Assembly (NCBI GenBank): GCA_021324255.1
Contig: JAJPJL010000024.1
Span: 1 to 54,960, forward strand
Length of the DNA: 54,960 nt
DNA from: Bacillota bacterium
Lineage (GTDB): Bacteria > Sysuimicrobiota > Sysuimicrobiia > Sysuimicrobiales > Segetimicrobiaceae
Direction: 5' to 3'
Under the pieces are notes generated by a model, which made no database searches, was not told where the DNA came from, and saw only the letters and a program-made list of their open reading frames with translations. Position numbers and translations under genes: made by a program. Below are positions 5,667 through 54,960 of this stretch, one piece after another (position 1 is the stretch's first letter; each line of letters starts with the position of its first letter).

Positions 5667-6697
5667 GCCGAGCCCTCCGGCAGCACGGCGTACCTGGCGC
5701 CGAGGCCGGCATCGAGGTCCCGGAAGGTCTCGACGATGGCGTCGAGCGGGCGTACCTCGGTGACGAGATCGCGAGGTCGGACGGCGCCCGACGAGAGGAG
5801 CGCGAGGGCGTCGTGCACGTCCTCGGTGCAATAGTGAAACGCGGCGATCAGATCGACCTCCCCGTAGTGGAGCCGCGTCGCATCGAACGCCGGCATCGTG
5901 CCTCCCGGCAGCCCGCCGAAGAGCAACACTCGGCCGCCGGAGGCCGCCCATGACGGGGCGGCACGCCACACCGCCTCCGACCCGGTGCACTCGATGACGA
6001 CGTCGGGACCACCCGGCCAGATGTGTCTCAGCGACGCGCCGACGTCGCCGGCGCCGGCGTCGATCACGCGGGACGCGCCGGCGCGAATCGCCTGATCCCG
6101 CCCCGCGGCCCGACGCCCGACGGCAACCACCTCGAGGTCCCGGCGGCGGGCCTCGCGAACGTGGAGCAACCCGATCGAGCCGGTCCCCACGACCGCGACG
6201 CGGGCGCCCGGCGCCGCGCCGAGCCGCCGCCATCCGTGCACGACGCACGCCAGCGGTTCCAGAAACGCGGCTTCGATGTACGACAGCGGCGCCGGCTTGG
6301 GCAGTAGATGCCGGCGCACGATGCGGGCGGGGAGGCGGATGGCGTCCGCGTACGCGCCGACGGCGATCTCATCGAACAGCGTTTCGCAGAGGTTTTCACG
6401 GCCCGCCCGGCAGCCGGCGCACTCGCCGCACGGCGCCGTCGGCGTGAACACCACGGCCTGCCCCGCGTGGAGCCCCTCGACGCCTTGTCCGGTGGCGAGG
6501 ACGTCCCCCGCGCCCTCGTGGCCGAAGGGGCCGAAGGGCACGCGGGGGTGCCCCCGGCGGTACGTCTTCAGGTCCGTGCCGCACGTGAGGGCGGCCCGGA
6601 TGCGGACGACGACTTCGCCGGGGCCCGGGTCGGGCTCGGGGACATCCCGCAGCGTGAGCTCGTACGGGGCCCGCAGGACCGCCTGCCGCACCATCAT
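5657..6697 (-). CDS. Zinc-dependent alcohol dehydrogenase family protein (MDR), first of a pair
   Basis: A 346-residue paralogue of the next gene. It begins MMVRQAVLRAPYELTLRDVP. The catalytic-zinc Cys is in ALTCGTDLKTYRRGHP, with GHEGAGDV following. Structural zinc cysteines are in CGECAGCRAGRENLC, and the Rossmann motif is VAVVGTGSIGLLHVREARRR. Two distinct MDR enzymes made from one message suggest sequential or alternative oxidation steps, or a heteromeric enzyme; this is inference. It starts 25 bases after the DinB-like gene, so the three minus-strand genes form one operon. Confidence 0.86.
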   Translation of the reverse strand: MMVRQAVLRAPYELTLRDVPEPDPGPGEVVVRIRAALTCGTDLKTYRRGHPRVPFGPFGHEGAGDVLATGQGVEGLHAGQAVVFTPTAPCGECAGCRAGRENLCETLFDEIAVGAYADAIRLPARIVRRHLLPKPAPLSYIEAAFLEPLACVVHGWRRLGAAPGARVAVVGTGSIGLLHVREARRRDLEVVAVGRRAAGRDQAIRAGASRVIDAGAGDVGASLRHIWPGGPDVVIECTGSEAVWRAAPSWAASGGRVLLFGGLPGGTMPAFDATRLHYGEVDLIAAFHYCTEDVHDALALLSSGAVRPRDLVTEVRPLDAIVETFRDLDAGLGARYAVLPEGSAWV

Positions 6698-6722
6698 GCG
6701 CCGGCGCCGGACCCCGGCGGAC

Positions 6723-7334
6723 TCACTCGTCGGTCCAGGCGCCGAGCGCCCGCCGGAGCACGAGCAGCTGCCCGAGATGGTACGCGTTGTGGTCGGCGGC
6801 GAGCAACGCTTCGTGCAGGATCGTGGGGCCCTTGGGATCGTGCGGAACCCGGGACAGCAGGTCCGTCGTGGGATCCGCGACGAGATCGATGAATGCCTGG
6901 CGGTCCGCCTCGAACGCGCGGACGGCGTCGGCCCATGCCTGCGGCGACGGCGGCGCCGCCTCCGGCCAGTAATCGTCGGGCCACGCCTTTTCGACGTAGT
7001 TGGGATCCCGGACATAATCCAGGATGTCGCGTTGCGCGCGGCGGAGATGCTCGAGTTGCTGCCACGGCGAATACGGCATGCCGGCCGGCTTCGCACCCTG
7101 AAGCTCGGCAGGCATCGTTTCCACCGCCCGTTCAAACGTCACGTGCGCGCCTCTGCCGCGCAGCAGATGGATGACATCATCCCGGAGCTTCTGGTCCAGC
7201 CGGCGGCTCTTCGCCGTCCGGGCTCGGCCCGGCGCCGCCCGTGCGCGCGCGGTACGCGCCGGCCGTGTGCGGGGAGCTTTGCGTGTGGTTGCGCGGCGCC
7301 GGCGCGATCCGCCGGCCATGCGCTTCGCACTCAT
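6723..7334 (-). CDS. DinB-superfamily protein with basic N-terminal tail
   Basis: 203 residues. The first 45 are rich in Arg, Ala, Thr and Lys (RRRRATTRKAPRTRPARTAR), like a disordered, possibly nucleic-acid-binding tail. The remainder is a four-helix DinB/DfsB-like domain: LDQKLRDDVIHLLRGRGAH, YSPWQQLEHLRRAQRDIL and a C-terminal ADHNAYHLGQLLVLRRALGAW. The histidines in LEHL and HNAYH fit the DinB metal triad. Members include thiol-dependent transferases (bacillithiol and mycothiol), but the role here is unknown. It heads the dehydrogenase operon. Confidence 0.78.
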   Translation of the reverse strand: MSAKRMAGGSRRRRATTRKAPRTRPARTARARAAPGRARTAKSRRLDQKLRDDVIHLLRGRGAHVTFERAVETMPAELQGAKPAGMPYSPWQQLEHLRRAQRDILDYVRDPNYVEKAWPDDYWPEAAPPSPQAWADAVRAFEADRQAFIDLVADPTTDLLSRVPHDPKGPTILHEALLAADHNAYHLGQLLVLRRALGAWTDE

Positions 7335-7524
7335 CGGCGTCCTCCCGCGTCACGTCAAGAGTACGTGCCGCGATGGAGTTTCGCGCGATGAAAACGCGGT
7401 TCCTGGCGGGCCCCGAGCATGCGCCGCGCCCGATCGCGGCGCCCGGTCCCGGACCCGTGCGGCAGGTATTGCGCCCCGTGCGGTGGAAGCCCCAACGCCA
7501 CTTGCGCCGCGCCGGAGGGGACGC

Positions 7525-8649
7525 ATGTATTTCAAACAGTTCCTGGACGAACGCTGCGGATGCGCGTCGTACCTCATCGCCTCGCGTCAGTCCCGCGAGG
7601 CCGCGGTCGTCGACGCCGCGCTCGACACCGGCCAATACGACGAACTGCTGCGCGAACGCGGGTTCCGGTTGAAGTACGTCATCGATACGCACGTGCACGC
7701 CGACCACGTCTCGGGGGCGCGCCGGCTGGCCGGGGAGCACGGCGCCGACCTCTGTCTCCACGAGTCGGCGGCCGTCGCCTATCCGTTCCGGGGCGTCCGC
7801 GACGGCGAAGAGTTGCCGTTGGGCCAGCTCCGCCTGCGGATCCTCCACACCCCCGGGCACCGCCCGGAGCTCATCTCGGTCCTCGTGATCAACCCGCCGC
7901 GCAGCCCGGAGCCGTCCATGGTGTTGACCGGCGATTCGCTGCTCGTCGGCGACGTCGGGCGCCCGGATTTCGGCGGCGGGGACGCCGCCGCGCAGTACGA
8001 GAGCGTCGCACGCCTGCTGGGCCTGCCTGACTGGGTCGCGGTGTTCCCCGGACACTTCGAGGGACCGTGCGGCAAGGGGATGTGCGGCCGCCCGAGCACG
8101 ACCATCGGATTCGAGCGTCTCTTCAATCCGGTCCTTCGCCTCGGCCGTCCCGAGTTCGTCTCGACGCTGTCCGGCAATGTTCCGGCCCGGCCGCTCAACA
8201 TGGTCGCGATCGAAGCCACGAACCGCGGCCGGGCGGACGCGGCATGGGCGATGCTGACCGGGCTGCCGCGGGTGGACGAGGCCGGCATCGACGCGCTGGA
8301 GGCGCTGCCCGGGGACGCGGTGCTGCTGGACGTGCGCGAGCCGGAGGAGTACGCGTACGGGCACGTGCCGCGGGCCGTCAATCTTCCGCAGGCCGAGCTG
8401 GCGACGCGCCTCGGCGACGTGCCCCGGGATCGGCCGGTGTACGTCATCTGCGAGAGCGGCATGCGGTCGCTTCGGGTCACCCAGTTCCTCCACCAAATGG
8501 GCTACCGGCGCGTCGTGAACGTCCGGGGCGGGACGGCCGCGTGGCGGCGGGCGGGACGGCAGGTGATCTGCGGGGACGCGCCTGGCAAACCGCGCATCGT
8601 GGAATCCGAATGGACGCACGCCGGCGGCACGTCCGCCCCGGCGGGATAG
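7525..8649 (+). CDS. Metallo-beta-lactamase/rhodanese fusion (persulfide dioxygenase-like)
   Basis: 374 residues in two domains. Residues 1-240 form a glyoxalase II/ETHE1-like metallo-beta-lactamase with THVHADHVSG (His56, His58, Asp60, His61), HTPGH (His112), TGDSLLVGDVGR (Asp137) and FPGHFEGPCG (His177). Residues 255-355 are a rhodanese domain: VLLDVREPEEYAYGHVPRAV and active-site loop CESGMR with Cys309. Such fusions oxidize glutathione or other thiol persulfides and move sulfane sulfur, giving sulfide detoxification. Start is ATG 7525 with GGAGGGG upstream. Transcribed divergently from the DinB-like gene. Confidence 0.9.
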   Translation: MYFKQFLDERCGCASYLIASRQSREAAVVDAALDTGQYDELLRERGFRLKYVIDTHVHADHVSGARRLAGEHGADLCLHESAAVAYPFRGVRDGEELPLGQLRLRILHTPGHRPELISVLVINPPRSPEPSMVLTGDSLLVGDVGRPDFGGGDAAAQYESVARLLGLPDWVAVFPGHFEGPCGKGMCGRPSTTIGFERLFNPVLRLGRPEFVSTLSGNVPARPLNMVAIEATNRGRADAAWAMLTGLPRVDEAGIDALEALPGDAVLLDVREPEEYAYGHVPRAVNLPQAELATRLGDVPRDRPVYVICESGMRSLRVTQFLHQMGYRRVVNVRGGTAAWRRAGRQVICGDAPGKPRIVESEWTHAGGTSAPAG

Positions 8650-45475: not shown

Positions 45476-45550
45476 TATTTTTCAACGTTTCTGAACGGCT
45501 GCTCACCGCGAACATGGGGTCATTGTCGTTAGTAAATCGTAAGTACGCCA

Positions 45551-45790
45551 TCACCGCGCGAACTGCCCCCGCGCGGCGAGCAACTCGCCGGCCACGATAG
45601 CCGCGTGCTCATGGGCCCGGGTAACGGGGTGCGCGTAGGTCCTGAGCGTGAATGACGCGCTTGAGTGCCCGATGCGGTCGGCGACTGTGCGGCCGTCCAC
45701 ACCTCGGCGCTGAGGTACGTTACGTGGAGATGCGCAGATCGTGGAGCCGGATACGCGGCAGCCCAAGCCGCTTGAGGCCCGGGTAGTGAT
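45551..45790 (-). pseudogene. Tyrosine recombinase (integrase) C-terminal remnant
   Basis: Two minus-strand frames carry integrase pieces. One reads [12 protein letters not shown] (the HxLR motif) and stops. The other reads RGVDGRTVADRIGHSSASFT then LRTYAHP, the IGHSS---T--TY-H motif with the nucleophile Tyr, to a stop at 45551. A frameshift and a short deletion separate them, and the catalytic N-terminal part is missing. It lies 75 bases from the tRNA-Val 3' end, the usual place of an integrase gene. Confidence 0.75.
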
Positions 45791-45802
45791 CACGGAGACC
45801 AA

Positions 45803-46140
45803 TCGGTGTCGACCCGCTCGGCGTCACCCACTTCGCCGAAATCCTGACGCTGTTCGAGTCCGATCCGTCGACGGACGCCGTGGTAGTCATCGGCGAGATA
45901 GGCGGCACGGACGAACTCGCCGCCGCGGACGCCGCCCTCCGGATGGCTAAGCCGGTCGTGGCATACGTCGCCGGGAAGTCTGCGCCCCAGGGGAAGCGTA
46001 TGGGCCACGCTGGCGCGATCGTGGCGGGGGGTCAGGATACCGCCGCGGCCAAGATCAACACTTTTCGGAGGGTCGGAGTTCGAGTGGCCGATCTTATCAC
46101 TGACGTCGCGCCGCTGATCGCGCATGTGCTACACGGGTGA
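45803..46140 (+). pseudogene. Succinyl-CoA ligase alpha subunit, C-terminal fragment
   Basis: In one plus frame from about 45803: [60 protein letters not shown] then AGAIVAGG and a normal end. This is the second half of SucD-type acyl-CoA synthetase alpha subunits; the histidine near GHAGA is the phosphorylation site neighbourhood. An in-frame TGA lies at 45787 and the CoA-binding N-terminal domain is absent. Probably a truncated copy left by recombination next to the integrase remnant. Confidence 0.8.
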
Positions 46141-46684
46141 CACGCTAGCTCCGCCCGCCGGGCGTCGTCCAGGGACCAAGCCGGGCGCGCGCTGACACTG
46201 CTGGCATCGCTACCCGACCTGCCGCGGGTCGACGAATTCGCCGCGTCGCTCGTCCCTTAATTGGCTATCCGCGTATAGCGCATCATTCTCGAACCATCCG
46301 AATCATCCGCACTCGCCGCCAGGTCGAGTACGCAGGATTACGTCATGCGACTCGTCCTCTGCTTCCCGTCGGGAGCGGCACTGTCGGAGATACGCTCTGC
46401 AGCGGGCCCCCCGATTTGTACCTCGTACACGCGGTGCCTAGCATCCGTCCATGGTCAATAAGGTCCAGGCGACCCAAGTCCCCAGAGGGTCACTGCGGCA
46501 AATACGAAGTCCCTCCCGGATTTGGACCACCCTTCGATGACGAAGTTGCCAACGCCCGACGTCGATCGCAGAAATCAGTCCACCGCGGTCCCCTGTTGCT
46601 CATGCGATCCGTGTCCGGAATGGCAGGAATTTCGATGACAATGCTGTATTACTGTCGACAGCCTACTGTCAGTGGAGGAACACG
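46141..46684. other. Stretch without recognizable gene; upstream region of the GntR operon
   Basis: No gene or repeat seen in the first 450 bases. GC falls toward the right. The last 40 bases hold the operator-like dyads noted separately and the ribosome site GGAGG before TTG 46685. Confidence 0.45.
46652..46673. promoter_or_regulatory. Adjacent dyads upstream of the gntR gene
   Basis: CTGTCGACAG (46652-46661) is a perfect 10-base palindrome. ACTGTCAGT (46665-46673) is a second dyad (ACTG-T-CAGT), starting 13 bases after the first one. They lie 12-33 bases upstream of the start codon, overlapping the expected promoter/SD region. Such sites would suit autorepression by the FadR-type regulator. 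Confidence 0.5.
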
Positions 46685-47377
46685 TTGGCAGCATCCGTGA
46701 CCGATTTTCGGATTCTTGAGCAAAAATCAGTCAGCCAGCAAGTGTTTGACGAGCTGCGGAGGCGCATCGTTCAGGGGCGTTTGCAACCGGGCGAGCGCCT
46801 CAATGAGGCCCGAATCGCCCAGGGCATGGGGATCAGCCGTGCGCCCGTCCGGGAGGCGGTCCAGCGGCTTCGGCAGGAAGGCCTCGTCATCCTCAAACCG
46901 CGGCACGGGCCGGTCGTCGCAGAGATCACCGGTACTGACGCGACTCACCTGTACCGCCTCCGCTGTGCTCTGGAAGAACTCGCCGTGGCGCTATTTATCG
47001 AGCACAGATCGCCAGAAGCCCTCGAAGCACTGGATGCTGCGGTCACCGCGATGACCCAAGCGAGTCAAGTCGATGATATGGCTCAAGTTGTCGAGCAGGA
47101 CGTGCGGTTCCACGAAGCACTGTGTGAGCACTCGGGGAACCCGCTGCTCAGCCGCATCTATCAGACCATTAGCGCGCAGTTTCGTATCGCCGCGATCCAG
47201 GACGATTCCCGCGAAGCTAGGCTTACAGAGATTGCGGTCGCGCATGCCGAGCTCCTCGACGTTATCCGGCAGGGCGTCGTCTCTGCCGCGGTATCCAAGC
47301 TTCGCGAACATATTCTCCATTCGCTGCCGGGCCTGGTCGCTCATCTCAATAGGCACGCGGCGAAGCGATCGCAGTGA
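46685..47377 (+). CDS. GntR-family (FadR/FCD) transcriptional regulator
   Basis: 230 residues from TTG 46685 (GGAGG upstream). N-terminal winged helix: SVSQQVFDELRRRIVQGRLQ, PGERLNEARIAQGMGISRAP and VREAVQRLRQEGLVILKPRH. The C-terminal all-helical FCD domain has RLRCALEELAVALFIEHRSP and VRFHEALCEHSGNPLL, with conserved Asp/His that can bind metal or ligand. FadR-type proteins sense metabolites of the genes beside them, here the transporter and catabolic genes that follow. Confidence 0.9.
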   Translation: MAASVTDFRILEQKSVSQQVFDELRRRIVQGRLQPGERLNEARIAQGMGISRAPVREAVQRLRQEGLVILKPRHGPVVAEITGTDATHLYRLRCALEELAVALFIEHRSPEALEALDAAVTAMTQASQVDDMAQVVEQDVRFHEALCEHSGNPLLSRIYQTISAQFRIAAIQDDSREARLTEIAVAHAELLDVIRQGVVSAAVSKLREHILHSLPGLVAHLNRHAAKRSQ

Positions 47378-47598
47378 CGCGGCACGCACCCATAATGACC
47401 GACCGAAGCGCATTGGCGGAACGCCGCGTCTCGCTCGAGGGTCCGCTCTCTCGAATCGCAGGCTGTCAATTTGGGTCGCCGGAGGAGCGCGGTGACGGGT
47501 GTTTGCGATGGCGGTGCCGGAGCCTATAAGGCGATTCCCACCAGTGGGGATTTTCAATTTCTCGTGGTCGATGCCTAACCAGAAGCGGGGGGTGACCT

Positions 47599-48549
47599 AT
47601 GACTTCGGGCAGGTTAGACAGAAGGCGTCTCCTCGGTACGGCTGCTAGGTTCAGCGTCGCCATATTGGCGGCGGGTTCCGTGCCCAAGGTGTTCGAGCGA
47701 CGCAGCGACGCGGCTACGGCCGATGATTCGCTCGCACGCGCCAGACGGCAAGGGTATCTCCGGGCCGCCTTCATCAACCTGAAGCCCCTGTCGTATGTTG
47801 ACGACAAGACCGGGAACTTTACGGGCAGCGGCCCGGCGGTGGCAGGCGCCATCCTGAAGAAGCTCGGCATCAAGAACCTCGACCCGGTCCTGATTGAATT
47901 CGATGCGATCATCCCTGGTCTGCTGGATCGGCGTTGGGATATGTCGGCCTTTCCGTTCTACATCACGCCGAAGCGATGCGCGCAGGTGGCGTTCACGAAC
48001 CCGATGGCGCAATATCGCGAAGGGGCGCTCGTGAAAGCCGGAAACCCGAAGAACCTCCATAGCTACACCGATCTCGCGAAGGACCCGGCGGTCAAGGTCG
48101 GGATCGGGACGGGGAACGCCGAGATCGATTGGGCCAAGCAGGCTGGGGTGAAGCAGGAGCAGATCGTCCTGTTCCCTGAGGAGGCCCTGGGGGTTGAGGC
48201 TCTCAAGGAAGGCCGGATCGATGCGTTTTTGAACGGCGATCTGAGCCTCGTGCTCGATGTCAAGGAGTACGGTGGCGCCGGTCAGCTCGAGCTGGCGAAA
48301 CCGTTCACGGGGCCGATGGAACACGGGAAGGAGATCATTGCATACGGTGGCTGGGCGATGCGTCACGACGATGTCAGTCTGCTGAACGCCTTCAACCAGC
48401 AGCTGGAGATGATGGTGAAGAGCGGTGAATTGCAGAAACTGCAAGGCCCATTTGGGTACACACCGGATATGCTGCCGCCCCCCGGCGTCACGGCCAAGGA
48501 TCTCTGCCCGGCGGCACCCTGGAAGCCGGGGTATAAGGTGTTCAAGTGA
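47599..48549 (+). CDS. Tat-exported polar amino acid/ectoine-type binding protein (EhuB-like)
   Basis: 316 residues. N-terminus TSGRLDRRRLLGTAARFSVA carries a twin-arginine motif, so export in folded form via Tat is likely. The family-3 binding fold has FIEFDAIIPGLLDRRW-like features, YITPKRCAQVAFTNPMAQYR and VKAGNPKNLHSYTDLAKDP, wordings close to ectoine/hydroxyectoine EhuB proteins. PFGYTPDMLPP and KDLC near the end also fit. Substrate by homology is ectoine or a similar polar amino compound; the neighbouring enzymes make another compound possible. Confidence 0.83.
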   Translation: MTSGRLDRRRLLGTAARFSVAILAAGSVPKVFERRSDAATADDSLARARRQGYLRAAFINLKPLSYVDDKTGNFTGSGPAVAGAILKKLGIKNLDPVLIEFDAIIPGLLDRRWDMSAFPFYITPKRCAQVAFTNPMAQYREGALVKAGNPKNLHSYTDLAKDPAVKVGIGTGNAEIDWAKQAGVKQEQIVLFPEEALGVEALKEGRIDAFLNGDLSLVLDVKEYGGAGQLELAKPFTGPMEHGKEIIAYGGWAMRHDDVSLLNAFNQQLEMMVKSGELQKLQGPFGYTPDMLPPPGVTAKDLCPAAPWKPGYKVFK

Positions 48550-48585
48550 CGTAGCCCGTCGCTGACGGCGCGTCGGTCTCGCACC

Positions 48586-49260
48586 ATGACGTTACCGGGC
48601 GTTAATCCAATCGTGCTGCGCTTGTTGCTCCAGGGCGTGGGGGTGACGATCCTCTCGGCGACCTTGAGCATGATGCTCGCTTTCGCGATGGCCTTCATTG
48701 CCGGACTCGCCCAGCTGTCCCGATTTCGGACCGTACGGACGGCGGCCACGGTATACGTCGAGTTCTTCCGGGGTACGTCGGCGTTAGTCCAACTCTACTG
48801 GGCATTCTTCGTACTGCCGTACGTTGGGATCCTTCTTTCGCCGCTGCAGGTCGGGATCGGCGTGCTCGGCTGCAATGCGGGCGCCTATGGGGCGGAGGTC
48901 GTTCGCGGTGCCATCCTCGGGGTCGCCCGCGGGCAATGGGAAGCCGCTGCCGCACTGAGCTTGCCTCCGCGGTTGACGATGTCGAAGGTCATTCTCCCCC
49001 AGGCCTTGCCGACGATGATCCCATCGTTTGGGAACCTCGCGATCGACGTCCTGAAAGCGACCGCACTGCTCTCCTTGATCACGGTGACGGATCTCACCCG
49101 CGTCGTCAGCCGACTCGCCGTGATCGGAAGTTGGACGTTCTCGTGGGGGTACACGGTCATCCTGGTCGTGTACTTTTGCCTGTCGCTGCCCCTGATCTTC
49201 GCCGCGCGAAGCGTCGAGCGCCGCATACGGAAACATATGCCGCAGGTCGCGAGGCCCTAG
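48586..49260 (+). CDS. Amino acid ABC transporter permease (EhuC-like)
   Basis: 224 residues from ATG 48586. HisM/GlnP-type permease with about five helices: LLLQGVGVTILSATLSMMLA, FRGTSALVQLYWAFFVLPYV and the coupling loop GVARGQWEAAAALSLPPRLT then MSKVILPQALPTMIPSF. It pairs with the 49262 permease to form the channel. It starts 37 bases after the binding-protein gene. Confidence 0.88.
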   Translation: MTLPGVNPIVLRLLLQGVGVTILSATLSMMLAFAMAFIAGLAQLSRFRTVRTAATVYVEFFRGTSALVQLYWAFFVLPYVGILLSPLQVGIGVLGCNAGAYGAEVVRGAILGVARGQWEAAAALSLPPRLTMSKVILPQALPTMIPSFGNLAIDVLKATALLSLITVTDLTRVVSRLAVIGSWTFSWGYTVILVVYFCLSLPLIFAARSVERRIRKHMPQVARP

Positions 49261-49261
49261 A

Positions 49262-49909
49262 ATGGATTTTCGCTATCTCCTTTCGGCGTTACCGCTTCTG
49301 TTGCAGGGCCTCGTGGTCACTGTCGAAGCCACGGTATTGGGCATGGTCCTCGCAGGCGCGCTCGGGCTGCTGATTGCAGTCATCCGGCTCTTGAGGCTGC
49401 CGATCGTGAGCCGGATCATGGACTTCTACATCCTGTTTGTCCGCAGTACCCCGCTCCTCGTGCAGCTCTTCTTCCTCTTCTATGTGCTGCCGTGGTACGG
49501 GCTCACGCTGAGCGCGTTTGGCGTCGGCGTGTGGGGGCTGGGGCTCCATTTTGCCGCGTACACGGCCGAAGTGTATCGCGCCGGATTCGAGCACGTTCCG
49601 AAGGGCCAGTGGGAGGCCGCGCGCGCTCTAAGCTTGAGCACGGTCGACACGTTAACGTTGGTGGTGTTCCCGCAGGCGCTTCGGCCCGTCCTGCCGGCGC
49701 TGGGGAACTACTTGATTTCCATGTTCAAAGATTCAAGCCTGCTCGCAACGATCACAGTGTATGAGCTGCTGGGAGTGACTCGTCAACTCGCCAGCGCAAC
49801 ATTTCAATACACAACGCTCTTCACCGCCCTCGGTGCGTTGTATTTTCTCCTTGCCTATCCATCGTCACTCGCGGTTCGATACGCTGAGGCGCGTCTTGGC
49901 CGCAGGTAA
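49262..49909 (+). CDS. Amino acid ABC transporter permease (EhuD-like)
   Basis: 215 residues from ATG 49262, one base after the previous stop. Same family: LLQGLVVTVEATVLGMVLAG, FVRSTPLLVQLFFLFYVLPW and the loop HVPKGQWEAARALSLSTVDT then LTLVVFPQALRPVLPALG. A second membrane subunit makes a heterodimer with the upstream permease. The ATPase gene starts 5 bases after its stop. Confidence 0.88.
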   Translation: MDFRYLLSALPLLLQGLVVTVEATVLGMVLAGALGLLIAVIRLLRLPIVSRIMDFYILFVRSTPLLVQLFFLFYVLPWYGLTLSAFGVGVWGLGLHFAAYTAEVYRAGFEHVPKGQWEAARALSLSTVDTLTLVVFPQALRPVLPALGNYLISMFKDSSLLATITVYELLGVTRQLASATFQYTTLFTALGALYFLLAYPSSLAVRYAEARLGRR

Positions 49910-49913
49910 GCTA

Positions 49914-50723
49914 ATGAGTGCTGCTGCGTCGTCTCCGGGAACGCGGCCGTCAACGCAGATTCTGGTGCGCCTTCTCGAGGCGGACAAATCGTACGGATCG
50001 TTGCATGTCTTGAATCGGCTTAGCCTCGAGGTGCGCCGCGGAGAGCATGTCGTGCTCATTGGCCCAAGTGGGTCCGGCAAAACCACAGTCCTGCGCTGCC
50101 TGATGACGCTCGAGCACCTCGATGCGGGAACGATCGAGATCGACGGCGATACGCTCGAATATCACCCTCGCCGGCCATCTACAGATCCCCAGTTCGCACG
50201 CCAGCAACGTTTGATCCGCCAGAAAGTGGGGATGGTCTTCCAACAATTCAACCTCTTCCCCCATATGACCGCGCTTGCGAATGTGACGCTTGCACCGTGC
50301 CGCGTTCTTCGGCTGTCTCGAAGCGACGCCGAGGCGCAGGCGAGCGAACTTCTGGGGCTGGTCGGACTCGGTGACAAGCTCCATGCGTATCCTTACCAGC
50401 TGTCGGGGGGCCAGCAACAGCGGGTCGCGATTGCCCGCGCCCTGGCGATGCGCCCCAAAGTTATGCTGTTCGACGAAGTCACGTCGGCACTCGATCCGGA
50501 GCTCGTCGGCGAGGTCCTGAAGGTTATTCGGCGCCTCGCGCACGACACCGGCATGACCATGTTGATCGTCACCCATGAAATGGAGTTTGCTGCGGAGATC
50601 GGCGATCGCGTCGTCTTTATGGAACATGGGCAGGTTATCGAGGACAGCCCACCAGGGGTGATCTTCAAAGCTCCTGTCAACGAGCGGACACGCCAGTTCC
50701 TGCGCGCACTGCGAGACCGGTAG
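49914..50723 (+). CDS. Amino acid ABC transporter ATP-binding protein (EhuA-like)
   Basis: 269 residues from ATG 49914. Walker A GPSGSGKTT, Q-loop MVFQQFNLFPHMT, signature LSGGQQQRVAIARAL, Walker B VMLFDEVTSALDPE and H-loop VTHEMEFA. The Glu of Walker B is present (DEVTS). It follows the GlnQ/HisP pattern for polar amino acid importers and powers the two permeases upstream. A longer frame to 49833 overlaps the permease and is less likely. Confidence 0.92.
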   Translation: MSAAASSPGTRPSTQILVRLLEADKSYGSLHVLNRLSLEVRRGEHVVLIGPSGSGKTTVLRCLMTLEHLDAGTIEIDGDTLEYHPRRPSTDPQFARQQRLIRQKVGMVFQQFNLFPHMTALANVTLAPCRVLRLSRSDAEAQASELLGLVGLGDKLHAYPYQLSGGQQQRVAIARALAMRPKVMLFDEVTSALDPELVGEVLKVIRRLAHDTGMTMLIVTHEMEFAAEIGDRVVFMEHGQVIEDSPPGVIFKAPVNERTRQFLRALRDR

Positions 50724-50748
50724 GGCCAACGCCGCAGGTGGTGCGTCG

Positions 50749-51723
50749 ATGCGAGGGGGAATGGTCGCTGTGTCCAACACCGGGAACAAGGCTCTCAGGA
50801 TCGTCACTGTTAACGGCCCCATCCGCCCGGAAGAGCTTGGGGTAACGCTGAGTCATGATCACATCTTGGTCGACGCCTGGGGCATGACACCCGGGTATGA
50901 GGACTATGGAACCATCCTCGATAACGAGGACCTGGCGATCGAAGAGCTCAAGGGCTACCGTCAGGCTGGCGGACGTGCGTTGTGCGATCCGACCACGGTG
51001 GGGATCGGGCGCAATCCGGAGGCGCTCAAACGAATTAGCCAGGCGGTGGGGATCCACATCGTAATGGGCTGCGGATGGTATCGAGAGCGCGTGTATCCGC
51101 CCTATGTGTTTCAAGAGCATCCGGACCGCCTCGCCGACCGCCTCGTTCAGGAACTTACCGAGGGTGTCGACGGAACGGGCATTCGCCCCGGCTTCATCGG
51201 CGAGATCGGGACCGAACGTTTCTACATCACGCCGGCGCAAGAGCGTGTCTTTCGAGCCGCCGCGCGTGCACAGCGCCTGGTCGGGTGCGCGATCATGACG
51301 CACACGACGCACTGGGGTGAACTGGCTCTTGAGCAGTTGGATCTTCTCGCGGAAGAAGGCGTCCCGGCCGATCGCGTCATCGTATCCCACCTCGGTGACA
51401 GGCCCGGCGCGCACGGGTTGCTGCCCATCGCCGAGCGGGGTGCATGGATCGACGTCGATAACCTGGCGTTTGCCGACTACGCGCCGCTGGAGGTTCGCGC
51501 TGATAACGTCGTCGCCCTGTGGAAGGCGGGTTTCGGCGGACAGATCATGCTGAGCAACGACATTTCCAAGATCAATCAGCTGACCTTCTACGGTGGCTGC
51601 GGCTATCAGAATGTGATCACGAATTTCTACCCTCTCCTCAAAGCTCGCGGCCTTACGGACGACCAGATCACCACGATGACCGTCAGGAATCCGAGCAAAG
51701 CCTTCGCGTACGCAGCGGGTTGA
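50749..51723 (+). CDS. Phosphotriesterase-family metal hydrolase
   Basis: 324 residues, COG1735 (PTE/Php) TIM barrel. First metal ligands in GVTLSHDHILVDAWG (HxH), bridging acid in GFIGEIGTERFY where classic PTE has carbamylated Lys, then MTHTTHWG, VSHLGDRPGAHG and the Asp in MLSNDISKIN. Having Glu at the bridge is like E. coli Php and lactonase-type members. Such enzymes open lactones or cleave phosphoesters. It lies 26 bases after the transporter ATPase, so it should act on the imported compound or an early product. Confidence 0.88.
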   Translation: MRGGMVAVSNTGNKALRIVTVNGPIRPEELGVTLSHDHILVDAWGMTPGYEDYGTILDNEDLAIEELKGYRQAGGRALCDPTTVGIGRNPEALKRISQAVGIHIVMGCGWYRERVYPPYVFQEHPDRLADRLVQELTEGVDGTGIRPGFIGEIGTERFYITPAQERVFRAAARAQRLVGCAIMTHTTHWGELALEQLDLLAEEGVPADRVIVSHLGDRPGAHGLLPIAERGAWIDVDNLAFADYAPLEVRADNVVALWKAGFGGQIMLSNDISKINQLTFYGGCGYQNVITNFYPLLKARGLTDDQITTMTVRNPSKAFAYAAG

Positions 51724-51771
51724 CCCGGTCCATTGGCGTACGTCGATCATATGGAAGGAGGCTATGGCGAG

Positions 51772-52971
51772 GTGTCGGTGTACGACCGGCTCGGTGTGAA
51801 GACGATCATCAACGCTGCGGGACCAGCGACGCGGTTGGGCGGTACTCTGATGGACTCCGAAGTTCTCAGAGCCATGACCGAAGCCGCGGGCGCGTATGTG
51901 AAGATGGATGAGTTACAGGAGGCGGCTGGGCGGGTGATTGCCCAAATCACGGGCGCAGAAGCGGGGTACGTCACTTCCGGGGCGGCCGCGGCTATGGCGC
52001 TCGCTACGGCCGCCTGCATGACGGGGGTGGACCCGGTCAAGATCAACCGCTTGCCGGATAGCCGCGGTATGAAAGACCAGGTGATCATCCAGCGCGCGCA
52101 CCGATACGACTATGATCACGCGATTCGGTCGGTAGGGGCGACTCTCGTCGAAGTCGGCTTCCCAGACTTGACCTTTGCCTACGACATCGAAGCCGCGATT
52201 ACGTGTGAAACAGCAGCAATAGCCTACTATCCTGTCAGGTCTCGCCCTTCTGTGCCACTTCACACCGTTGCGGATATCGCGCACCGTCACGGTATCCCAG
52301 TGATTGTCGACGCGGCGCTGGAAGTGCCGCCCACCGAAAATCTCCGGCGGTACATCCAGGAAGGTGCAGACCTCGTCGCGTTCAGCGGTGGCAAGGCTAT
52401 CCGCGGACCGCAAGCAAGCGGCATTCTCTGCGGGCGCGCAGACTTGATCAGGGCCGTTGCGTTGCACAATCTCGACATGGACGTGCGGCCAGAAACGTGG
52501 ACGTACCAGCGCATGATCGACGAAGGTCGCATCCCGGGGCCGCCGTACCATGGTATCGGCCGCTCCATGAAAGTCGGTAAGGAGGAGATCGTGGGCTTGC
52601 TCGTCGCCTTGGAGCGGTACGTCCGCCAGGATCATGCGACGATCCGCGCGGAGTGGCTGAATAAGCTCGCGTCCATCCGGAACGCGTTGAGCGAAATCGA
52701 TGGCCTCACGGTGACAATAGTTGAGGAGCCGCTGGGCGGACTCGCTGTCCCGTATGCCCTGGTGCAGTTGGACGAGCACAAGCTTGGGATCACCGCGTAT
52801 CAACTGCTCAACGGTCTTCAGGAATGCGATCCCCCGATCTACCTAATCGAAGAACCGGCTTGGCGTGGAGCCGTGGCGGTCAGTCCGATGACACTGCAGG
52901 ACGGTGATGAACTCGCAATTGTCCACGCGATCCCCCAGGTTCTCAAGCACGTGGCACGTGGACGAACGTGA
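51772..52971 (+). CDS. SelA-like PLP-dependent enzyme (DgaE/selenocysteine synthase family)
   Basis: 399 residues from GTG 51772 (AAGGAGG upstream); TTG 51733 gives a longer form. Fold-type I PLP enzyme of the SelA/DgaE group: YDRLGVKTIINAAGPATRLG, ITGAEAGYVTSGAAAAMALA, VDAALEVPPTENLRRYI and the PLP lysine in LVAFSGGKAIRGPQASGI. Relatives are selenocysteine synthase and D-glucosaminate-6-phosphate ammonia-lyase. No selD/selB is near, so ammonia elimination from a 2-amino sugar acid or other amino acid is more likely. Last gene of the operon. Confidence 0.87.
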   Translation: MSVYDRLGVKTIINAAGPATRLGGTLMDSEVLRAMTEAAGAYVKMDELQEAAGRVIAQITGAEAGYVTSGAAAAMALATAACMTGVDPVKINRLPDSRGMKDQVIIQRAHRYDYDHAIRSVGATLVEVGFPDLTFAYDIEAAITCETAAIAYYPVRSRPSVPLHTVADIAHRHGIPVIVDAALEVPPTENLRRYIQEGADLVAFSGGKAIRGPQASGILCGRADLIRAVALHNLDMDVRPETWTYQRMIDEGRIPGPPYHGIGRSMKVGKEEIVGLLVALERYVRQDHATIRAEWLNKLASIRNALSEIDGLTVTIVEEPLGGLAVPYALVQLDEHKLGITAYQLLNGLQECDPPIYLIEEPAWRGAVAVSPMTLQDGDELAIVHAIPQVLKHVARGRT

Positions 52972-54448: not shown

Positions 54449-54742
54449 TCCGGCTAACCTATAACCTAACCTACGGCGCCGACGTCATGAGCGATGTTCA
54501 TTCCCAAACCAACGGGCTACCAAACCCACGTTCGACCTAGAGTCCGCGGATCCCCGGTTCGCCTGGCGTGCTTCGCGGCACTTCCCCTGTCGCCTGACGG
54601 TGGCAAGTCCCCGCGCCCTCATTCTTATGGTATGCGCTCAGGCGGCCCCGGCTATCTAGTGCCGATCCAACTTGATTGACAGGGTGCGATATGATGGGGG
54701 CGACTGGTCATGGCAGCATTCATCGTCACAGCGGAGGCACCC

Positions 54743-54960
54743 ATGCATCCTCTCATTCTTCGACGCATACGACCCCACGAACGGCAGCTGCTGCATGCCA
54801 AGCTCCGCACGTCGACCCTGCCCGTTCGTTTCCATCAACGGTATCGGATTGTAGCGGAAGCCGCCCGCGGCCGCTCGGCCTCGGTGATTGCCGATCGCGT
54901 GGCGTGCGACGTCGATACCGTGTACCTGTGGATCCATCGGTTCAACACCTCGGGGTTCGA
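54743..54960 (+). CDS. IS630-type transposase, N-terminal part (cut by window end)
   Basis: From ATG 54743: RRIRPHERQLLHAKLRTSTL, RYRIVAEAARGRSASVIADR, VACDVDTVYLWIHRFNTSGF. The helix-turn-helix (A-S-IAD-V---DTVY-WI-RFN--GF) is that of IS630-family transposases. It differs clearly from the one at 38029, so it belongs to a second element whose 3' part lies beyond the window. Confidence 0.72.
   Translation, partial: MHPLILRRIRPHERQLLHAKLRTSTLPVRFHQRYRIVAEAARGRSASVIADRVACDVDTVYLWIHRFNTSGF

Follow-up and report, generated by a model that had tools for sequence, protein, structure and literature searches.

In the 54,960-nucleotide (nt) stretch of contig JAJPJL010000024.1 analysed here (the window), seven genes on the + strand (46685–52971) form a conserved unit encoding a GntR regulator, an ABC importer, a phosphotriesterase (PTE)-family metal hydrolase, and a SelA-like pyridoxal phosphate (PLP) enzyme. 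We consider the balance about even as to whether this unit is a scavenging operon through which a carboxylate with a blocked amino group is imported, hydrolytically unblocked, and then cleaved as a (probably D-, beta-hydroxy-) amino acid by PLP chemistry. The gene order is GntR regulator, solute-binding protein, permease, permease, ATPase, PTE-family hydrolase, and SelA-like enzyme, with intergenic gaps of 221, 36, 1, 4, 25, and 27 nt; the tight packing spans the binding-protein gene through the SelA-like gene. Pfam and NCBIfam assigned the products to FCD+GntR, SBP_bac_3, two BPD_transp_1, ABC_tran, PTE, and SelA, respectively. An earlier note on this DNA had described at this place a FadR-type regulator, an importer, a PTE-type hydrolase, and a SelA-like enzyme separated by short gaps, and the coordinates and both sets of family models bear this out.

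Conservation of the gene set and the enzyme pair

All seven genes recur collinearly in another species of the genus (the congener; genome G002, locus L127), with 71–81% protein identity and no stops. The ratio of nonsynonymous to synonymous substitution rates (dN/dS) between the window and the congener was 0.08–0.11 for the five genes that allowed its calculation; the hydrolase and SelA-like genes had saturated synonymous sites and a proportion of nonsynonymous differences (pN) of 0.14–0.18. Since L127 keeps all seven genes in order with low dN/dS, the set is not a chance assembly and is under purifying selection. The uptake-and-catabolism unit seen in the earlier note is thus conserved, and hydrolysis probably precedes the PLP step.

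Relatives of the hydrolase were found at L127 (79% identity), L029 (67%), L171 (64–66%), L172 (59%), and L004 (52–53%), and at seven further loci (L173–L179) with 45–50% identity. L172 begins at a contig edge and was left out of the pair count. The earlier note had staked its proposal on the hydrolase and PLP genes being kept beside the importer; the two genes lie in one unit in all five testable loci with at least about 53% hydrolase identity (the window, L127, L029, L171, and L004), and an importer belongs to that unit in four of them. In contrast, none of the seven loci with a 45–50% identical PTE gene (L173–L179) carries a SelA-like gene, and M81, MR_MLE, or class-III-PLP-like genes are found there instead (Fisher p 0.0013 between the two groups, kinship being ignored).

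The importer is Ehu-like in the window and L127, LAO-like in L029, and Dpp/Opp-like in L171, and L004 has a lone binding protein on the opposite strand. In L029, the SelA-like gene is separated from the hydrolase gene by binding-protein and permease genes, and the SelA-like frame contains one in-frame TAG. In L171, the pair is accompanied by the Dpp-type importer and a D-aminoacylase-like gene. Across these units, the importer type varies and the enzyme pair stays constant. Of the hydrolase-linked genes, four group in a single clade of the SelA tree (SH-aLRT 100) and L171 falls outside, so that the PTE label needs two changes. This is suggestive, not proof, of two separate PTE-SelA pairings, as one long branch is weakly placed. 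No record in the plasmid collection contained most of the operon; its SelA-like matches were at most 45% identical and its PTE matches at most 38%, all in other contexts.

Two side observations concern these loci. The L029 record is titled Proteobacteria and groups with the phylum of the Thermomicrobiales genome that contains L004, a probable label mismatch. At L174, L176, L178, and L179, the PTE genes with 45–50% identity are located beside M81 peptidase genes and a class-III PLP gene (glutamate-1-semialdehyde-aminomutase-like, by eye), possibly another hydrolase-PLP pairing.

The SelA-like PLP enzyme

The SelA-like gene ends at 52971 (+ strand; Pfam SelA 54.7 bits, cut-off 22.8). Its start is ambiguous: ATG at 51751, or GTG at 51772 behind the ribosome site AAGGAGG at 51755–51761. 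The latter agrees with the start position of the homologues and may be the true start. The curated cut-offs for DgaE were not reached (TIGR01437, 242.8 versus 385.3 bits; NF047797, 242.3 versus 600 bits), nor was that for the SelA selenium transferase (TIGR00474, 67.7 versus 267.9 bits). The Schiff-base lysine K215, D187, and the lysines K274 and K277 of the MKVGKE motif are kept. With the AlphaFold model (pLDDT 81), the nearest structures were Cap15 (8t7j; Z 41.8, 35% identity) and DgaE (7lc0; Z 40.2, 34% identity), and SelA reached only 25–28. By modelled fold and by its PLP and catalytic lysines, the enzyme is placed in the DgaE/Cap15 branch of SelA-like enzymes.

DgaE acts on a D-amino acid, according to a title cited in PMC12343721. 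Cap15, from the capuramycin pathway, uses O2 to turn (5'S,6'R)-glycyluridine, a beta-hydroxy-alpha-amino acid, into a carboxamide, is inactive on the 6'S isomer, and requires lysines K262 and K265 (PMC7497351, PMC6384614, PMC6411801). Cap15 K230, K262, and K265 correspond to K215, K274, and K277 of the window enzyme. D-glucosaminate-6-phosphate, the substrate of DgaE, also carries a beta-hydroxyl. Because Cap15 and DgaE act on such amino acids, the substrate of the window enzyme would be a beta-hydroxy-alpha-amino acid with an R alpha-carbon. The setting differs from both relatives: that of Cap15 is biosynthetic, whereas the window operon has no nucleoside genes, and it also lacks the DgaF-type aldolase and the phosphotransferase system of DgaE. 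Two chemistries are known in this branch, ammonia release and O2-dependent monooxygenation-decarboxylation. The release of ammonia that the earlier note assigned to the PLP enzyme therefore stands as one of two options, but the nearest solved relative, Cap15, is an O2-dependent monooxygenase-decarboxylase.

The PTE-family hydrolase

The hydrolase gene (50749–51723, + strand) encodes a predicted binuclear metal enzyme (PF02126, 216 bits, cut-off 22.4). In an alignment of 14 sequences, the metal ligands H36, H38, E152, H185, H214, and D271 were invariant. Glu152 occupies the bridging position, as the earlier note had read from the sequence, and the His/Asp ligands are conserved. Three structures were about tied as nearest to the AlphaFold model (pLDDT 89): 3k2g, an uncharacterised PTE-like protein (Z 41.8); Lmo2620, a lactonase (Z 41.1); and PTER, an N-acetyltaurine amidohydrolase (Z 40.7). 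PTER acts on N-acetyltaurine and N-acetyl-beta-alanine (PMC11374699, PMC13311154). The PTE fold, the full metal-ligand set, and the bridging Glu are common to the window enzyme, PTER (PDB 9efa), and Php of Escherichia coli. Identity to Php is 33%, and the Php equivalog cut-off was not reached (PRK09875, 181.7 versus 486 bits). The earlier note had proposed the opening of a lactone or other ring; since the nearest solved hydrolases comprise the amide hydrolase PTER besides a lactonase, de-N-acylation is just as likely.

The yhf operon of E. coli (yhfS-php-yhfT) was considered as a homologous operon and rejected, and the likeness is a parallel layout only. YhfS, whose C-terminal domain forms a separate family, is at best remotely related to the SelA-like enzyme (E 2e-4), and YhfZ does not belong to the FCD-GntR regulators. 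Nothing direct was found in the literature on yhfS or on operons combining PTE and PLP genes.

The importer

All four importer subunits passed the NCBIfam equivalog cut-offs of the Ehu system: the family-3 solute-binding protein (47599–48549; EhuB, TIGR02995, 221.9 bits, cut-off 190.9), the two permeases (48586–49260; EhuC, TIGR03004, 212.9 bits, cut-off 196.95; and 49262–49909; EhuD, TIGR03003, 225.7 bits, cut-off 205.2), and the ATPase (49914–50723; EhuA, TIGR03005, 352.2 bits, cut-off 345.4), all on the + strand. The solved structure nearest to the binding protein is EhuB (2q88). Judged by eye only, a twin-arginine motif is present as DRRRLLG in the window and NRRGLL in the congener.

We take the ligand contacts of EhuB to be Glu21, Phe24, Tyr60, Phe80, Arg85, and Thr133, numbers that fit the 2q88 sequence. 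Glu21 is said in the 2007 EhuB structure paper to contact ectoine. The binding proteins of the window and the congener have Leu, Leu, and Ala in place of Glu21, Phe24, and Thr133, and keep Arg85 and aromatic residues at positions 60 and 80. Glu21 is present in 2q88 and in both EhuBs located beside doeA/doeB that were used for comparison (L154 and L155). In the whole genome (95% complete), EutD and EutE gave no match over the cut-off, with the best scores being 103 of 613 and 111 of 403 bits, respectively; a standard ectoine route therefore has no support, in line with what the earlier note had read from this unit. Ehu-labelled importers were also found without eut genes elsewhere. Among these are ehuB-annotated genes on Bradyrhizobium and Mesorhizobium plasmids (L156 and L158), located away from eut/doe genes, one of them an orphan.

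The window and the S. meliloti-type EhuABCD (PMC5924519) have in common the order of binding protein, two permeases, and ATPase, attached catabolic genes, and Arg85; they differ in Glu21, which is Leu here, in the absence of EutD/EutE over the cut-off from the window genome, in the regulator, which is FCD-GntR here and MocR/AsnC there, and in the PTE-family and SelA-like enzymes, which take the place of the eut/doe genes. The importer is Ehu-like in architecture, but specificity for ectoine is not supported by its residues and genomic setting, because Glu21 is lost, EutD/EutE over the cut-off are absent, and Ehu-labelled importers occur without eut genes. The EhuB-like importer of the earlier note accordingly holds for all four subunits, more than had been stated, whereas the ligand residue Glu21 is lost. 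Four proteins thus lie over ectoine-transporter thresholds, yet the residues and the genome oppose ordinary ectoine use, and automatic pathway calls would mislead here.

The regulator and a candidate operator

The first gene of the unit (46685–47377, + strand, TTG start) encodes a GntR/FCD (FadR-type) regulator (PF00392 and PF07729) that is 71% identical in the congener. The candidate operator ACTGTCGACAG (46651–46661, no strand assigned), 23 nt before the GntR start, contains the perfect 10-bp palindrome CTGTCGACAG. A 12-nt string with this palindrome lies directly upstream of the GntR gene in both the window and the congener, where TACTGTCGACAG was found. The 11-nt core with the palindrome has one copy in the 3.7-Mb genome, and about two are expected from composition; therefore, only its position and conservation count as evidence for an operator. 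The GntR/FCD protein probably represses from the palindrome before its own gene.

Proposed pathway and alternatives

We propose that the operon would act as a substrate-induced scavenging unit. The importer would bring in a small carboxylate with an alpha-nitrogen that is either blocked or part of a ring, because the binding protein keeps Arg85, has lost Glu21, and lacks an Asp for alpha-amino binding at the customary position. Inside the cytoplasm, the PTE-family enzyme with its binuclear metal site would unblock this compound by amide, lactam, or lactone hydrolysis, a reaction class taken from its family. This would release an amino acid, most likely beta-hydroxylated and of R (D) configuration at the alpha-carbon, which would pass to the SelA-like enzyme, either for DgaE-like alpha,beta-elimination to a keto acid and ammonia or for Cap15-like O2-dependent decarboxylation. 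This proposal is based on the collinear seven-gene set of the congener with dN/dS of about 0.1, the persistence of the enzyme pair across changing importer types, Cap15 and DgaE as nearest relatives of the PLP enzyme, and the cleavage of N-acetyl amides by PTER, whose structure is close to the hydrolase model.

It is also based on the wider SelA-like family. In 46 of 89 SelA-like loci, one or more of seven families of metal-dependent amide or peptide hydrolases occur within 5 kb, although these families were picked for their recurrence in SelA-like neighbourhoods and several of the loci nearly duplicate one another, so that the counts are descriptive. The neighbours were COG3964-like amidohydrolase (16), M81 (13), D-aminoacylase-like (12), creatininase (10), PTE (3), M19 (3), and M55 (1); the M55 and COG3964 labels were given by eye, and the M81, M19, creatininase, and amidohydrolase families were confirmed by Pfam. 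More than 6 kb away, none of these families occurred in 428 kb of those contigs. Besides the descriptive nature of these counts, further points weigh against the proposed scavenging of a blocked amino acid. PTER Arg204 and Arg233, which contact its substrate (PMC13311154), align with His and Asp in the window hydrolase; its substrate therefore probably differs from that of PTER, and the window enzyme, unlikely to hydrolyse N-acetyltaurine, may instead be a lactonase. In addition, the binding protein of L029 comes from a different PAAT branch, and it seems to retain the Asp that binds an alpha-amino group, a feature that would suit a free amino acid.

A known pathway for N-acetylglucosaminic acid, that of OngB/OngC, has the same logic with enzymes of other families (PMC9537276, PMC12017989). 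Import of an N-acyl sugar acid is followed by a metal amidohydrolase and PLP deamination; OngB is a D-aminoacylase-type amidohydrolase, and OngC is annotated as a D-amino acid deaminase (PMC9537276). That pathway also has an SSS symporter, a kinase, and RidA, none of which the window operon contains. The neighbourhoods also tie the poorly characterised SelA-like branch (DgaE, Cap15) to a metal hydrolase that recurs as its partner and is interchangeable in type, and a testable rule for a substrate search follows: candidates are beta-hydroxy amino acids, probably of D type, that are N-acylated or cyclised.

In an amino-sugar lactone pathway, a lactonase would open an aminoaldonolactone and the SelA-like enzyme would act as a glucosaminate-type ammonia-lyase, giving a 2-keto-3-deoxy acid. 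The tie of Lmo2620 as nearest hydrolase structure, the HLGD motif of the hydrolase (a motif of PTE-like lactonases), the relatedness of DgaE to the PLP enzyme, and 2-keto-3-deoxy-6-phosphogluconate-aldolase genes near eight SelA-like loci are all consistent with it. However, sugar kinase and aldolase genes are absent from the window operon and L127, the importers of the close relatives are mostly of amino-acid or peptide rather than sugar types, and the DgaE cut-offs are not reached. We regard this pathway as rather unlikely.

General scavenging of D-amino-acid peptides or N-acyl-D-amino acids, with the hydrolase freeing a D-amino acid that the PLP enzyme deaminates or racemises, draws on the D-aminoacylase-type amidohydrolases, M19, M55, and M81 families, and Dpp transporters that neighbour the SelA-like family, and on the company of the pair in L171. 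The window operon itself lacks those hydrolases, and we know of no peptidase in the PTE family. This explanation, too, seems fairly improbable.

Non-standard use of ectoine or hydroxyectoine would require a true Ehu importer, a PTE-family ring hydrolase or deacetylase replacing EutD/EutE, and a SelA-like enzyme acting on 3-hydroxy-diaminobutyrate from hydroxyectoine. The Ehu cut-offs passed by all four subunits agree with this, and the beta-hydroxy-alpha-amino acid that hydroxyectoine would give is of the class on which Cap15 acts. Against it stand the Leu at position 21 in the window and congener, though Glu is kept in the doeA-linked EhuBs compared, the lack of EutD/EutE over the cut-off, the Ehu-labelled importers away from eut genes, and the other importers that serve loci with the same enzyme pair. 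Moreover, the alpha-carbon of the hydroxyectoine-derived product would be S, and Cap15 takes R. Such use is quite unlikely. In a more specific version, independent of EutD/EutE, the PTE-family enzyme would act by ring opening or deacetylation on hydroxyectoine, or on a cyclic amidine related to it, and a Cap15-like enzyme would cleave the resulting beta-hydroxy-amino acid with O2. This route is very unlikely; if true, it would place O2-dependent PLP chemistry in nutrient catabolism.

That the operon serves to detoxify or salvage an antibiotic (e.g., a nucleoside or cyclic amino-acid antibiotic) or a xenobiotic, and not for nutrition, is highly improbable: Cap15 comes from antibiotic biosynthesis, PTE-family enzymes include xenobiotic hydrolases, and the operon lies at the low-GC window end beside mobile-element-like remnants, but a high-affinity importer with a GntR regulator is the usual nutrient-scavenging layout, and no resistance gene was seen nearby.

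Surroundings and other SelA-like loci

Along the window, GC drops from 0.74 to 0.60, and the operon, at 0.61, is possibly part of an island. Upstream (45540–46150) lie a frame resembling the C-terminus of a tyrosine recombinase (by eye; no Pfam match) and part of a succinyl-CoA ligase (PF00549, 42 bits). At the other end of the window (54700–54960), an HTH_23 frame resembles the start of an IS630-type transposase.

The same genome has a second SelA-like gene (52% identity) on contig C85 (L128, 4535–10862), together with a PAAT importer, an MR_MLE enzyme, and an M19 dipeptidase. Plasmids of Rhizobium, Pannonibacter, and Agrobacterium (L185, L186, and L188) share a cluster with a LacI regulator, a sugar-type ABC importer, a phosphotriesterase, a glutamine amidotransferase, BtpA/SgcQ, and ribokinase. 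L187, a Sinorhizobium phosphonate cluster that includes phosphoenolpyruvate mutase, has a SelA-like stretch within a protein annotated as hypothetical (5935–7530).

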